The notes beneath the pieces were generated by a model that made no database searches, was not told the origin of the DNA, and saw only the letters and a list, made by a program, of their open reading frames with translations. From Salinicoccus halitifaciens (lineage in GTDB: Bacteria > Bacillota > Bacilli > Staphylococcales > Salinicoccaceae): a DNA stretch of 64,000 bases. This document shows positions 4,716 through 23,980 of this stretch, piece by piece. The number at the start of each line of letters is the position of its first letter. The stretch's first letter is position 1. Both the position numbers and the translations under genes were made by a program. The DNA is taken from NCBI RefSeq assembly GCF_021026095.1, contig NZ_JAJNCU010000005.1, positions 62,001-126,000 of the forward strand, in the 5' to 3' direction.

Positions 4716-5657
4716 TCAGTCTTCTTTGCGGAGACCCAGTCCAAGGTCTTCCAGCTTGAATTTAACTTCTTCCAAGGACTTGCGCCCAAGGTTTCTGACT
4801 TTCATCATGTCCGCTTCTGATTTATCAGTAAGCTCCTGGACGGAATTGATCCCTGCACGCTTCAGACAGTTGTATGAACGCACGGAAAGATCCAGCTCCT
4901 CGATGGACATTTCAAGCACTTTCTCTTTCTGGTTCTCTTCCTTTTCAATCATGATTTCGACATTTTGAGCTTCATCCGTCATATCGACGAAGATGTTCAA
5001 GTGCTCGGTCATGATTTTAGCGGATAAAGATACTGCTTCCTGCGGTGTGATCGATCCATCAGTCCATACGTCAAGCGTGAGCTTGTCGAAATTGGTCATC
5101 TGGCCGACACGTGTGTTCTCCACAGTGTAGTTCACCCGTTCAACAGGTGTGTAAATCGAATCCACCGGAATGACGCCAATTGACAATTCATTCTTGTTGT
5201 CATCGGACATGGTGTAACCACGGCCGCGGTCGGCGATCATCCTTATCTTCAACTGTCCGCCGCTTGCGACAGTCGCTATCTTAAGGTCAGGGTTCAGGAT
5301 TTCCACATCACTGTCGTGAGTGATATCGGAAGCTTTCACTTCACCTTCACCTGAAACATCGATTTCCAATGTTTTTTCTTCTTCAGAATAAATTTTGAGT
5401 GCGAGTTGCTTAACGTTTGTAATGATCGTGGTCACATCTTCAACCACGTTCTCAATCGTTGAGAATTCATGCAGTACATTTTCTATTTCAATCGTTTTTA
5501 CAGCCGCACCTGGTAAAGATGACAATAGAATGCGACGTAAGGAGTTTCCAAGTGTTGTTCCATAACCGCGTTCCAATGGTTCAACAACAAACTTACCAAA
5601 CTTAGAATCTTCCGACACTTCGACTGTTTCAATTCTAGGTTTTTCGATTTCAATCAT
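4716..5657 (-). CDS. rpoA: DNA-directed RNA polymerase alpha subunit
   Basis: Assembly platform of RNA polymerase and contact for UP elements and activators. The N-terminal domain shows [21 protein letters not shown] near residue 30 (dimerisation and beta contact). A linker at about 225-245 is followed by the C-terminal domain with the helix-hairpin-helix region [16 protein letters not shown] and [12 protein letters not shown]. The 313-aa length is standard. Confidence 0.98.
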
Positions 5658-5743
5658 TCGTTTCTTTTCCTCCCTTTAAACGCCGAAAATATTATACAAC
5701 CATGTGTTCTATTATAACTGATTTGACGTTACAAATTAAGCAC

Positions 5744-6136
5744 TTACACACGGCGGCGTTTAGGTGGACGGCAACCATTGTGAGGTACAGGTGTCACATC
5801 TTTGATTGCTGTGATTTCCAGACCTGCAGATTGCAATGCACGGATTGCTGCTTCACGACCGGCACCTGGACCTTTGACTGTTACTTCAACTGTTTTCAGT
5901 CCGTGTTCCATAGCCGCTTTGGAAGCAGTTTCGGAAGCCATTTGAGCTGCGAATGGTGTTGATTTCTTAGAGCCTTTGAATCCTAACGCACCTGCAGATG
6001 ACCATGATAAAGCATTGCCGAATTCATCTGTGATCGTTACGATCGTATTGTTGAAAGTTGAGCGGATATGCGCAACTCCTGCGTCTATATTCTTTTTCAC
6101 CTTACGCTTACGACTTTGTTGTTGTCTACGAGCCAT
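5744..6136 (-). CDS. rpsK: 30S ribosomal protein S11
   Basis: Platform protein next to the mRNA exit. Conserved blocks are [28 protein letters not shown] and a GRE-containing [13 protein letters not shown]. The C-terminus [15 protein letters not shown] is invariant in bacteria. 130 aa; the upstream GGAGG gives the start at 6136. Between rpsM and rpoA, as in other Bacillales. Confidence 0.98.
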
Positions 6137-21066: not shown

Positions 21067-21867
21067 ATGAAATCCCATAGATATAAATTGGCAACACTCG
21101 TTTTATCCACAGGGCTGCTGCTCGGTGCATGCGGCGGTGAAGAAGAAGCTCAGGCTCCGGAGGATCCTGAAGAAGTTGCGGATACTGCCGTGGAAGAAGA
21201 TGAAGGTACAGGCACCACCGATCAAAGCACCGATACTTCTGATGATGCCGCCGAAGAAGCGGATACATCAGATGATTCTGCAGGAGAAAGCACGGATGAC
21301 ATGGAAGATACATCAGATACGACGACTGATACATCATCGGACAACACCGACTCGACCAGCGAGTCAGAAGAAACAGAATCCACTGAGGGTGAAGCCGATG
21401 AGGACACCGAAACAACCGAACCTACCGGAGTTGCGGTATTGGATCAGCTCGGCTCCACTCCTGAAGAAGCCGTAAGTGCCGCCCAGGAGAACTTTGACGG
21501 TGAACTGATGGAGCTTGAACTCGATCAGGAAGACGGGGACTGGGTATATAAGGTCTCAATGGAAAATGAATCCGAGGAGTATGAAGCCAAGATGCTCGCA
21601 GAAGACCTGTCCGTCATCAGTGAAGAAACAGAAAGCAATGACGGCATGGACGCAAATGACGTCTTTGCATATGAAGACGCCATCCCGCACGATGAAGCAG
21701 TCCGGACTGCAATGGACGAAGTCGGCGGTGAACTCGAAGGCTGGACACTCGATAAAGATGACGGCCAACTTGAATACGAAATCGAGCTCATGAACACGGA
21801 TGCCGGCGGCGATGCAGAAGTGAAGATCAATGCCGAATCCGGCGAAATTCTTGAAACAGACGACTAA
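21067..21867 (+). CDS. lipoprotein with acidic linker and two PepSY-like domains
   Basis: 266 aa. Lipoprotein signal with Cys22 (LLGAC), then about 100 residues very rich in Asp, Glu, Ser and Thr. Two PepSY-like repeats follow at about 120-180 (TPEEAVSAAQENFDGEL, then WVYKVSMENE) and 195-265 (PHDEAVRTAMDEVGGEL, then LEYEIELMN). PepSY domains often inhibit or modulate extracytoplasmic peptidases. The acidic linker probably spans the wall and suits a high-salt exterior. It follows its truncated paralogue by 41 bases in the same operon and ends at a strong terminator. Confidence 0.85.
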   Translation: MKSHRYKLATLVLSTGLLLGACGGEEEAQAPEDPEEVADTAVEEDEGTGTTDQSTDTSDDAAEEADTSDDSAGESTDDMEDTSDTTTDTSSDNTDSTSESEETESTEGEADEDTETTEPTGVAVLDQLGSTPEEAVSAAQENFDGELMELELDQEDGDWVYKVSMENESEEYEAKMLAEDLSVISEETESNDGMDANDVFAYEDAIPHDEAVRTAMDEVGGELEGWTLDKDDGQLEYEIELMNTDAGGDAEVKINAESGEILETDD

Positions 21868-21939: not shown

Positions 21940-22152
21940 TTATCCGGATGGAGGAGGCTTGAGGCGGCGCGCTATCTGGATTTTCAGCGATTATCCGGAC
22001 GGAGACTGCCGGGCACGGAGCGCCATCTGGATTCCCGGCGTTTATCCGGACGGAGGGGGCCTGGCGCGGGGTGCTATCCGGATTCCCGGCGCTTATACGG
22101 ACATGGGAAGTCTCGATCGCCGTCCTGTCCGGATTTTCAGGATATATCTAGA
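21940..22152 (+). repeat. 51-bp periodic intergenic array, motif TATCCGGA (four units plus remnant)
   Basis: TATCCGGA or close variants recur at 21941, 21992, 22043, 22094 and 22145, exactly 51 bp apart. A second motif, ATCTGGAT or ATCCGGAT, recurs at 21974, 22025, 22076 and 22127, also 51 bp apart. Sequence between the motifs diverges. The array fills most of the 400-base gap between the lipoprotein terminator and the monooxygenase gene. Because 51 is a multiple of 3, an open frame with 17-aa repeats crosses it. There is no start site, and other frames are open too, so I do not call it coding. The rest of the gap (22153-22311) shows nothing I recognise. Confidence 0.85.
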
Positions 22153-22311
22153 TGCAAACAGAAACAGAAATGGGCGGGACATACGCTCAACGTCATCAGC
22201 AATTTACAATCTGAAATGGAGAGTTGAATCTTTGGTGATGCAGGCTTATTCTGTTTACAAAACGAAAGCCGGCATCAAATGGATACCGGCAATAATATGC
22301 AGAGAATTTTA

Positions 22312-23685
22312 TTAGAAGCGGACCTTCCTTGTGCTTTTCCCGGGATGATCTTCAGGTAGTCTATCCCCTTGACCGAATAGATTATCTCTCAACGTTGCAC
22401 CTTCATATTCCTTTGGCACCCGTCCTCTTTCCTGCAGGATTGGAACAACATGTTCAATGAACTCCTTGAACGTCCCGGGACTCGTAGTATGCGCCAGATT
22501 GAAACCATCCACTCCAGCTTCTTCCATCCATTGCTCCAACTCGTCTGCAACCTGTTCAGGCGAGCCGACGACATAGGCACTGATTCCTCCAATACCGATG
22601 AAATCCCTGAGTTCTTTGATGGTCCACTGCTTGTCCGGGTCAACTCTTGTCAGCACTTCTATTACGGAACGCATGGAGTCGTTCTCCACATAGGTCAAGA
22701 CATCGTCGTCATCAAACTCTGAAAGATCAATGCCTGTCCATCCACCGAACAGGGCGAAGGCGCCTTCGTGGCTGATATGCTTTTTGAATTCCTCCAGTTT
22801 CTGATGGGCGCTCTCTTCCGTTTCCCCGATGATTGGTGTAAGCATTGTCAATATCTTTATGTCTTCAGGCTTTCTTCCATTTTTTTCGAAATCGGCCCGC
22901 AATCTCTTCACCGTCTCTCTTCCCGCCTCTATCGAAGGTGCATTAATAAAGACAAGTTCAGCATTCTTCGAGGCGAATTCCCTTCCTCTGGGTGACGCCC
23001 CGGCCTGGAAAAGCACCGGTGTACGCTGTGGCGAAGGCTCACTGAGATGCGCTCCCGGCACTTTGTAGTACTTGCCTTCATGATGGATATCATGAACCTT
23101 CTCAGGATTGGCATAAATCCCGGTTTCCTTATCCGCAACGACAGCATCTTCCTCCCAGCTCTCTTCCCATAGCTTATAACATACTTCCAGATATTCCTGG
23201 GCAATATCATACCGTTCATCATGACCAATCTGTTTGTCCAGTCCGATATTGACTGCGGCACTATTCAGGTAAGAAGTGACAATATTCCATCCGACACGTC
23301 CATTCGTCAGGTGGTCAAGGGTCGTCATCCGGCGGGCAAATGTATAAGGATGTTCATGAGTCACAGAAGCTGTTAGACCGAAACCCAGATGGTTGGTCAC
23401 TGCAGACATCAGAGGTACAATGTAGGATGGATCATTCACCGGTGCTTGGGCACCCCGGCGGACAGCGGGGTCTCTTGATCCTCTGTACACATCATAAGTA
23501 CCGAGGACATCCGCAAGAAATACTGCATCAAACCTCCCTTTCTCCAAAAGCCTGGCCAGCTTGATCCAATACTCACTTTTCCTGTATCCTGAAGCATCAT
23601 TATCCGGATGCGTCCACAGCCCTGCGGACATATGTCCCGGTGTATTCATTACAAAGGCGTTCAGATAAATTCTTTTGTTGTTCAT
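22312..23685 (-). CDS. FMN-dependent monooxygenase, NtaA/SnaA/YtnJ family, SAM-riboswitch controlled
   Basis: 457-aa luciferase-like flavin monooxygenase that would use reduced FMN supplied by a reductase. Typical blocks are LNAFVMNTPGHMSAGLWTHP at the N-terminus, LARLLEKGRFDAVFLADVLG, the DPS-containing PVNDPSYIVPLMSAVT, and NGRVGWNIVTS. The QAGASPRGREFASKNAELVF block is also family-specific. The start at 23685 (MNNKRIYLN) follows GGAGGAGATATC. The SAM-I riboswitch in its leader ties it to methionine or sulfur limitation. An organosulfur-salvage role like that of Bacillus YtnJ is therefore the best inference; nitrilotriacetate-type substrates are less likely. The flavin reductase is not adjacent. 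Confidence 0.88.
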   Translation of the reverse strand: MNNKRIYLNAFVMNTPGHMSAGLWTHPDNDASGYRKSEYWIKLARLLEKGRFDAVFLADVLGTYDVYRGSRDPAVRRGAQAPVNDPSYIVPLMSAVTNHLGFGLTASVTHEHPYTFARRMTTLDHLTNGRVGWNIVTSYLNSAAVNIGLDKQIGHDERYDIAQEYLEVCYKLWEESWEEDAVVADKETGIYANPEKVHDIHHEGKYYKVPGAHLSEPSPQRTPVLFQAGASPRGREFASKNAELVFINAPSIEAGRETVKRLRADFEKNGRKPEDIKILTMLTPIIGETEESAHQKLEEFKKHISHEGAFALFGGWTGIDLSEFDDDDVLTYVENDSMRSVIEVLTRVDPDKQWTIKELRDFIGIGGISAYVVGSPEQVADELEQWMEEAGVDGFNLAHTTSPGTFKEFIEHVVPILQERGRVPKEYEGATLRDNLFGQGDRLPEDHPGKSTRKVRF

Positions 23686-23742
23686 GATATCTCCTCCAAT
23701 GATTTTAATAGTTGGTCCGATGCTGGAACAAAAAAATGCCGT

Positions 23743-23780
23743 AAAATAAAAGCCTCCTTTCTCCCGAAGAGAAAAGAGGC
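23743..23780 (-). terminator. riboswitch expression-platform terminator
   Basis: On the minus strand GCCTCTTTTCTC (23769-23780) pairs with GAGAAAGGAGGC (23752-23763), twelve pairs with one G-U around a UUCGG loop, then UUUUAUUUU. Located between the SAM aptamer and the monooxygenase start, as in a transcription-terminating S-box. Confidence 0.9.
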
Positions 23781-23808
23781 ATCTGACCATTGAGCCGGAT
23801 ATATGTTT

Positions 23809-23909
23809 CTTATCTCCCGAGAGGTTTTCTCGCTGGAATTAGCACCTATCTGGACATGCCAGGGTTGCTGAAGCTTCATAGGGCCAGTCCCTCCGCTTCT
23901 CTGAATAAG
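23809..23909 (-). promoter_or_regulatory. SAM-I (S-box) riboswitch
   Basis: The minus-strand RNA carries the S-box core: 5' P1 strand CTTATTCAGAGAAG, then GGAGGGACTGGCCC and ATGAAGCTTCAGCAACC. It continues with GGTGCTAATTCCAGC and the closing 3' P1 strand GAGATAAG. All conserved blocks are in order. High S-adenosylmethionine would favour the terminator just downstream and shut off the monooxygenase gene. Confidence 0.96.
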
Positions 23910-23935
23910 ATTATTGAATTGTTATAATATCCAGT

Positions 23936-23980
23936 CTATTCTAGTATATCCGACAAGTCAAGTAGGTAATCGATTTTCAT
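23936..23980 (-). CDS. possible 14-residue peptide between ehuA and the SAM riboswitch
   Basis: ATG at 23978-23980 follows GAGGAGGGTGAAAA, a strong ribosome site with seven-base spacing. It encodes MKIDYLLDLSDILE and stops at 23936-23938, about 27 bases upstream of the riboswitch. No homologue is known to me. It could be a leader peptide, a tiny functional peptide or a chance frame behind a purine-rich stretch. Confidence 0.35.
   Translation of the reverse strand: MKIDYLLDLSDILE

Follow-up and report, generated by a model that had tools for sequence, protein, structure and literature searches.

Among proteins of solved structure, the closest by sequence score to the enzyme described here is DmoA, the dimethyl-sulfide monooxygenase of Hyphomicrobium (PDB 6ak1). 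According to PMC13352529, DmoA converts dimethyl sulfide (DMS) to methanethiol and formaldehyde together with a separate flavin reductase, encoded by the neighbouring gene; one figure legend in it says DMSO. It should be added that, according to PMC9259527, recombinant DmoA candidates in a screen, one of them from Bacillus megaterium, showed no DMS turnover, and with the reductase used there DmoA was likewise inactive on DMS. For other sulfur compounds, PMC10863075 describes C-S bond cleavage by related flavoenzymes. Other described systems of relevance are LadA, a long-chain alkane monooxygenase (3b9n), CmoJ (YtnJ) of the cysteine salvage in Bacillus subtilis and, at the RNA level, the SAM-I (S-box) riboswitch, RF00162. 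In the open-licence literature, searched by titles and the starts of abstracts, we found no SAM riboswitch recognised before a DmoA/LadA-type monooxygenase, which is not proof of absence.

We analysed a stretch of 64,000 nt (hereafter, the window) from Salinicoccus halitifaciens (GCF_021026095.1, contig NZ_JAJNCU010000005.1, positions 62,001-126,000, forward strand), in which a gene of this type stands behind a SAM-I leader. A previous, sequence-only reading of this DNA had seen a complete SAM-I aptamer and terminator before a lone NtaA/YtnJ-type monooxygenase gene; it had placed the enzyme within the methionine/sulfur-starvation response and had suggested salvage of an S-alkyl or organosulfur compound, without the ytm-type operon of Bacillus. 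We consider it reasonably probable that the locus as a whole represents an enzyme of sulfur acquisition governed by an S-box OFF switch.

The SAM-I leader, its gene and the SAM-I units of the genome

The aptamer (Table 1) matched RF00162 over all model positions 1-108 (88.2 bits against a gathering score of 44.4, E 1.3e-19) and was the sole Rfam match at gathering score within the window; a model made from the SAM-I set of this genome, which includes the window aptamer itself, gave 89.5 bits. It is followed by a terminator stem of 13 pairs, and thus the complete aptamer and terminator before a single monooxygenase gene were confirmed. The 3' strand of P1, GGGAGATAAGA, has an alternative partner in the 5' half of the terminator (23780-23766), with predicted duplex energies of -13.1 kcal/mol for the antiterminator, -5.5 for P1 and -20.0 for the terminator. 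Antiterminator and terminator are predicted to be mutually exclusive, which is the usual S-box OFF-switch logic. The leader therefore shares with RF00162 both the full consensus and the P1/antiterminator/terminator arrangement, and is unusual only in the gene it controls. With 11 SAM-I riboswitches in 2.68 Mb, the probability that a given gene has one by chance in the 300 nt before it, on its own strand, is about 0.0006. It is highly likely that the window gene is under SAM control.

Table 1. Features of the locus (window positions) and of the associated microproteins
Feature	Position	Strand	Basis or remark
SAM-I (S-box) riboswitch aptamer, RF00162	23807..23911	-	88.2 bits, full length
P1 3' strand, alternatively antiterminator 5' half	23808..23818	-	predicted duplex energies
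Intrinsic terminator hairpin, then TTTTATTTTA	23752..23780	-	-20.0 kcal/mol
Promoter-like TTGACT-17-TAGACT upstream of aptamer	23933..23961	-	weak: 3 sites in region, 2.9 expected by chance
Ribosome binding site GGAGGAG	23691..23697	-	direct reading
457-aa FMNH2-dependent monooxygenase, DmoA/LadA branch of TIGR03860 (PF00296)	22312..23685	-
Terminator-like hairpin 3' of gene	22268..22290	-
Microproteins	L009:2970-3065; L010:2236-2340; 22 related loci	-; +

The coding region starts with the ATG at 23685, a few bases behind the ribosome binding site, and stops at 22312; a longer frame from 23790 is unlikely as the gene start because it opens 5' of the terminator. Since a hairpin (22290-22268) follows the stop codon and the nearest sizeable downstream frame (21067-21867) is convergent on the plus strand, a single-gene unit is likely, and the unit looks monocistronic. 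The interval that separates the 3' end of the monooxygenase gene from this plus-strand frame contains a 51-bp tandem repeat of 3.2 copies (21940-22102). Upstream, the strand of the monooxygenase gene carries genes resembling those of the ectoine/hydroxyectoine ABC transporter EhuB, EhuC, EhuD and EhuA (EhuB over its cut-off, the other three just under theirs), and read-through from them may contribute to transcription of the monooxygenase. No flavin reductase gene was seen beside it among the window frames and family profiles.

The genome (99.75% complete) has four TIGR03860 genes over the cut-off, and three of them are situated directly behind a SAM-I riboswitch: the window gene, C5:332660-333940 and C4:6524-7807. 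The description of the window gene as lone holds for its operon but not for the genome, where two further such genes follow SAM-I. The C5 unit continues, with no terminator-like site, into a CoA-acylating methylmalonate-semialdehyde dehydrogenase gene (TIGR01722, 584 bits), the one locus with a dehydrogenase gene in such a monooxygenase run. The fourth gene is a CmoJ/YtnJ relative (532 bits to YtnJ); its neighbour is a second luciferase-like monooxygenase, which belongs to the MsnO8 family, and a search of that stretch for SAM-I gave no match. The remark on the missing ytm-type operon is in this respect misleading.

Other SAM-I units contain, by eye, MetK and two MetNIQ-like sets; one has MetY, identified by its profile score (676 bits), with MetA, read by eye; a further unit, L012, combines MetY with an SsuA-like binding protein, ABC genes and acetate-CoA ligase. 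MetY over its cut-off (TIGR01326) thus stands behind two other SAM-I riboswitches of the genome. The O-acetylhomoserine sulfhydrylase at L012:4737-6539, with SAM-I before it and SsuABC-like genes and acetate-CoA ligase after it, carries a C-terminal extension of about 170 residues, by eye resembling a CoA-binding domain. Another unit (L010:803-5865) consists of SAM-I, thiolase, a microprotein, a symporter of type A (see below) and acetoacetate-CoA ligase, an odd carbon-metabolism unit in the SAM regulon. At L016:1114-6821, the genes behind SAM-I encode an enzyme of the enolase superfamily together with a TctABC-like transporter and an M20 amidohydrolase. SAM-I at L017:1051-1411 precedes a 61-aa frame, without NCBIfam match at E 1e-30, downstream of a frame that by eye is sulfatase-like. 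At L140:1429-3091 another luciferase-like monooxygenase neighbours a flavodoxin-like protein (86.6 bits to the SsuE model, below cut-off), a possible FMNH2 source.

Placement of the enzyme in the DmoA/LadA branch

The window protein scored 560.3 bits against TIGR03860 (cut-off 279.7) and exceeded the cut-off of no other NCBIfam family. Its scores against solved relatives were 540 bits for DmoA, the best in PDB, 494 for LadA and 248 for YtnJ/CmoJ; identities were 52% (DmoA), 53% (LadA) and 50% (each SAM-I-led paralogue, of which there are two). The protein is consequently a member of the DmoA/LadA branch of TIGR03860 and not of the YtnJ/CmoJ branch, and the NtaA/YtnJ-type label had to be abandoned. 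Neither YtnJ as the nearest solved relative nor a ytm-type operon around the window gene was found. We know of no activity for any protein this close to the window protein.

The predicted structure (mean pLDDT 82, residues 61-83 poor) matched LadA, RcaE, HcbA1 and DmoA nearly equally (Z 48.0 to 45.9); LadA was on top by about 1 Z, too close for a tie-break between DmoA and LadA. CmoJ (Z 40.8) and SsuD (Z 32.7) were weaker matches. LadA, at Z 48.0, has the same fold, but its His138 and His311, both important residues in LadA, correspond to Tyr and Leu in the window protein; DmoA has Tyr in its listed site.

With DmoA the window protein shares a GGWTGID motif and 16 of 20 ligand-site residues, at positions listed in PMC9259527; it differs in lacking an adjacent reductase gene and in having the SAM riboswitch. 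In the pocket table, 33 chosen rows of 88, the same listed positions were kept at 15-19 of 20 in the displayed SAM-I members of the window clade, at 13 in the second Bacillota clade and in LadA, and at 19 in L073, which has no riboswitch. The DmoA-like pocket is no proof of function, because it is equally kept in members without a riboswitch.

SAM-class control and partner genes in relatives

Loci L060-L139 are the best 80 of at least 459 confirmed relatives, in named genomes, and for this reason the fractions below describe near relatives of the query and not the whole family. The search for SAM riboswitches before orthologues, which the sequence-only reading had suggested, detected SAM-I upstream on the same strand at 30 of the 33 Bacillota loci among these 80 (model from the SAM-I set of this genome), the exceptions being two Alicyclobacillus and one Paenibacillus. 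Within the same 80 loci, the riboswitch was separated from the monooxygenase by no gene in 18 of the 30 cases and by one gene in 12, and a terminator followed the aptamer in 29 of the 30, as it did before all three own genes. In the window clade (11 rows of this set), SAM-I preceded 10 out of 10 other members; two Alicyclobacillus rows without it belong to the next larger clade. Seven of seven Micrococcaceae loci among the best 80 (six Rothia, one Kocuria) had SAM-IV (Rfam) directly upstream, and no SAM-class riboswitch was found with Rfam in the remaining 40.

The SAM-I model was based on a MAFFT alignment and had only 15 pairs; its recovery of SAM-I was good. Among the 30 SAM-I loci, an additional Rfam scan covered L060, and the other 29 rest on model scores of 66-94 bits; for all 47 loci outside Bacillota, Rfam was applied directly. 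Six weak minus-strand matches of the model in five Micrococcaceae loci (18-31 bits) were confirmed by Rfam. Searching for SAM-I by regular expression proved too permissive and was given up; L116, with a broken monooxygenase frame, and L112, with a broken symporter frame, were kept in the counts. Among the best 80, five of the six Rothia loci also have a minus-strand SAM-I, some 170-200 bases further upstream, so that SAM-IV and SAM-I stand back to back on opposite strands (L072, L074, L081, L085 and L087, around 5480-5890); in L072, SAM-I leads SsuB-, SsuA- and SsuC-like genes.

On the tree, which was quick, had SH-aLRT support only and had its long branches flagged, presence and absence of SAM control need at least three changes, and well-supported branches force all three. 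SAM control appears to have been gained repeatedly: three groups possess it, the window clade, the C5/C4 clade and Micrococcaceae, whose SAM-IV-led proteins group with DmoA. From this distribution, the enzyme genes apparently came independently under SAM-I in the two Bacillota clades and under SAM-IV in Micrococcaceae. SAM-IV (RF00634) before the Rothia and Kocuria homologues recognises the same ligand class and controls the same enzyme branch, but it is another RNA family in another phylum, a case of convergent control.

Compared with the ten orthologue aptamers of its clade, the window aptamer shows 75-80% identity to seven and 65% or less to three; for the other ten aptamers of its own genome, identity does not exceed 67%. 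In a survey of 33 family genomes, 51% was the highest identity of any further gene to the full-length window gene, or was not reached; one match of 54% is part of a broken paralogue. The switch and the gene therefore appear to have arrived together, and their co-inheritance is likely. Conserved SAM control in orthologues, the tree and this co-inheritance all support the membership of the gene in the methionine/SAM regulon.

Within the four nearest relatives, among the matches listed, L060, L061 and L063 have SAM-I followed by an SsuE-type FMN reductase gene and then the monooxygenase. The reductase was called by TIGR03567 over cut-off in L060 and L061 and by sequence cluster in L063 (clusters were single-linkage; cluster c1, mixing ABC ATPases, was not used), and a Cys/Met PLP enzyme is encoded just downstream in L060. 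The reductase in the riboswitch unit of three near orthologues and the DmoA-like pocket make organosulfur use probable, as was originally suggested.

A sodium:solute symporter gene follows the monooxygenase in 22 of 30 SAM-I loci among the best 80 of at least 459, and in this set two symporter types, A and B, partition perfectly with the enzyme clades. Type A occurs in all five symporter-bearing loci of the window clade (54-61% identity to the symporter of the own thiolase unit, 31-35% to that of C5), and type B in all 17 of the C5/C4 clade (62-82% to the C5 symporter, 28-33% to the thiolase-unit one), again among the best 80. In Sediminibacillus albus, the type A symporter is in a second SAM-I unit, followed by another frame that by eye resembles a monooxygenase. 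From this partition, the likely transporter for the window gene is the type A symporter encoded with the thiolase, behind SAM-I, on contig C4.

Beside the SAM-I-linked symporters we identified two conserved families of unannotated microproteins (31-38 aa, single membrane span). Among the best 80 of at least 459, the type B form (MF[VI]NxML..WLYG..SLWKWYF) follows the symporter gene at all 17 loci and the type A form precedes it at all five, the L131 copy lacking the usual start codon. Both types are present in this genome, each beside the matching symporter. Four of the sequences matched no Pfam or NCBIfam family over cut-off; they are likely to be small transporter subunits.

Possible routes to methionine and rival explanations

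When SAM is plentiful, it would bind the aptamer, P1 would form and the terminator (23780-23752) would halt transcription; when SAM is scarce, the P1 3' strand would instead occupy the terminator's 5' half, and transcription would proceed into the monooxygenase gene. The enzyme, a TIM-barrel FMNH2-dependent monooxygenase, would obtain reduced FMN from a reductase encoded elsewhere. Most likely, it would oxidise the carbon next to sulfur in a small thioether, upon which the C-S bond would fall apart and release a thiol, most simply methanethiol, and we infer that this thiol would reach methionine via the O-acetylhomoserine sulfhydrylases (MetY) encoded behind other SAM-I switches of the genome. 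That the enzyme takes part in sulfur/methionine acquisition is very likely, and C-S cleavage of an organosulfur compound is probable. The direct use of methanethiol is proposed tentatively, and DMS itself is unlikely to be the physiological substrate. DMS crosses membranes freely and many relatives have a dedicated symporter, which argues for a polar substrate.

Two contexts for such a need were considered. MetE over cut-off, MetH and PF02574 were not found in the genome, and a need for methanethiol seemed likely for this reason; the enzyme as a stand-in for a missing methionine synthase is, however, weakened by two short MetE-like proteins (593 and 444 bits to NF005085), with which the genome may not need methanethiol, and by the family-wide absence of MetE over cut-off (0 of 33 family genomes). 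A replacement for sulfate assimilation is unsupported, since CysH (PAPS reductase) co-occurs with the enzyme: counted over the 33 family genomes, strong matches (187-202 bits; weaker ones of 20-51 bits not included) were present in 7 of 16 genomes with the enzyme and 0 of 17 without.

Because the C5 run continues into the CoA-acylating semialdehyde dehydrogenase, we also considered a more specific, quite improbable scheme, in which the SAM-controlled monooxygenases would be the core of an undescribed O2-dependent demethiolation system for polar thioether carboxylates. It would exist in two parallel versions, each with its own monooxygenase clade, Na+/solute symporter type and single-span subunit of 31-38 aa, and oxidation would occur at the carbon beta to the carboxylate. 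Type B in this genome would comprise one SAM-I, then monooxygenase, symporter, microprotein and the CoA-acylating malonate/methylmalonate semialdehyde dehydrogenase, and could turn a 3-methylthiopropionate-like substrate into methanethiol and malonate semialdehyde. Type A would be split between the monooxygenase in the window and the microprotein and symporter in the other SAM-I unit, between thiolase and acetoacetate-CoA ligase, and could turn a C4 analogue into methanethiol and acetoacetate. The thiol would be used for methionine and the remaining carbon stub would end up as acetyl-CoA, bypassing the DmdBCD route.

Another route, which we judge decidedly unlikely, would involve oxidised sulfur: a sulfone, sulfoxide or sulfonate would be cleaved to sulfite or sulfinate and reach methionine via sulfide, not methanethiol. 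The SsuA-like binding protein and ABC genes linked to SAM-I in L012, the SsuB/A/C-like genes beside the SAM-IV-led gene of Rothia L072, and SfnB/DszC-like oxygenases adjoining the riboswitch-free homologues L114, L097 and L091 are consistent with it; against it, the window protein is far from SsuD, MsuD and SfnG in sequence and structure (Z 30-34 versus 46-48), and PAPS reductase was not found in this genome. Alternatively, the enzyme might not serve salvage at all, being an NAD(P)H:FMN oxidoreductase or a detoxification enzyme with SAM control for an unrelated reason. The findings of PMC9259527, where recombinant DmoA candidates catalysed NADH:FMN oxidoreduction without DMS turnover, would fit, yet SsuE (L060, L061, L063) or symporter genes share the riboswitch of the monooxygenase in relatives, and we give this explanation a slim chance.

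A LadA-like hydroxylase of alkanes or other hydrocarbons, with the riboswitch by happenstance, is very unlikely: the identity to LadA and its top structural rank speak for it, but the Tyr and Leu in place of the two important histidines do not, and repeated gain of SAM control would be unexpected for alkane use. Least credible is CmoJ/YtnJ-type salvage of S-alkyl cysteine, the model drawn from the sequence-only reading. The window protein shares with CmoJ the TIGR03860 superfamily and the TIM barrel, and CmoJ cleaves an S-alkyl cysteine sulfoxide, according to PMC10863075; however, the score to YtnJ is about half that to DmoA and the branch is another one. Given this placement, and the separate CmoJ-like gene beside the MsnO8-family enzyme, where no SAM-I was found, CmoO/CmoJ-like salvage describes the window gene poorly.

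Names such as nitrilotriacetate, alkane or dimethyl-sulfide monooxygenase are usually given to members of this branch on the strength of similarity and nothing else. Their apparently independent capture by SAM-I in two Bacillota clades and by SAM-IV in Micrococcaceae suggests that, in those lineages, the cell treats these enzymes as part of its response to SAM shortage. For the preferred reading, a SAM-controlled enzyme of sulfur acquisition, the search for the substrate would be narrowed to sulfur compounds feeding methionine, with partner transporters named, and the function could be tested by growth on candidate compounds under methionine limitation.
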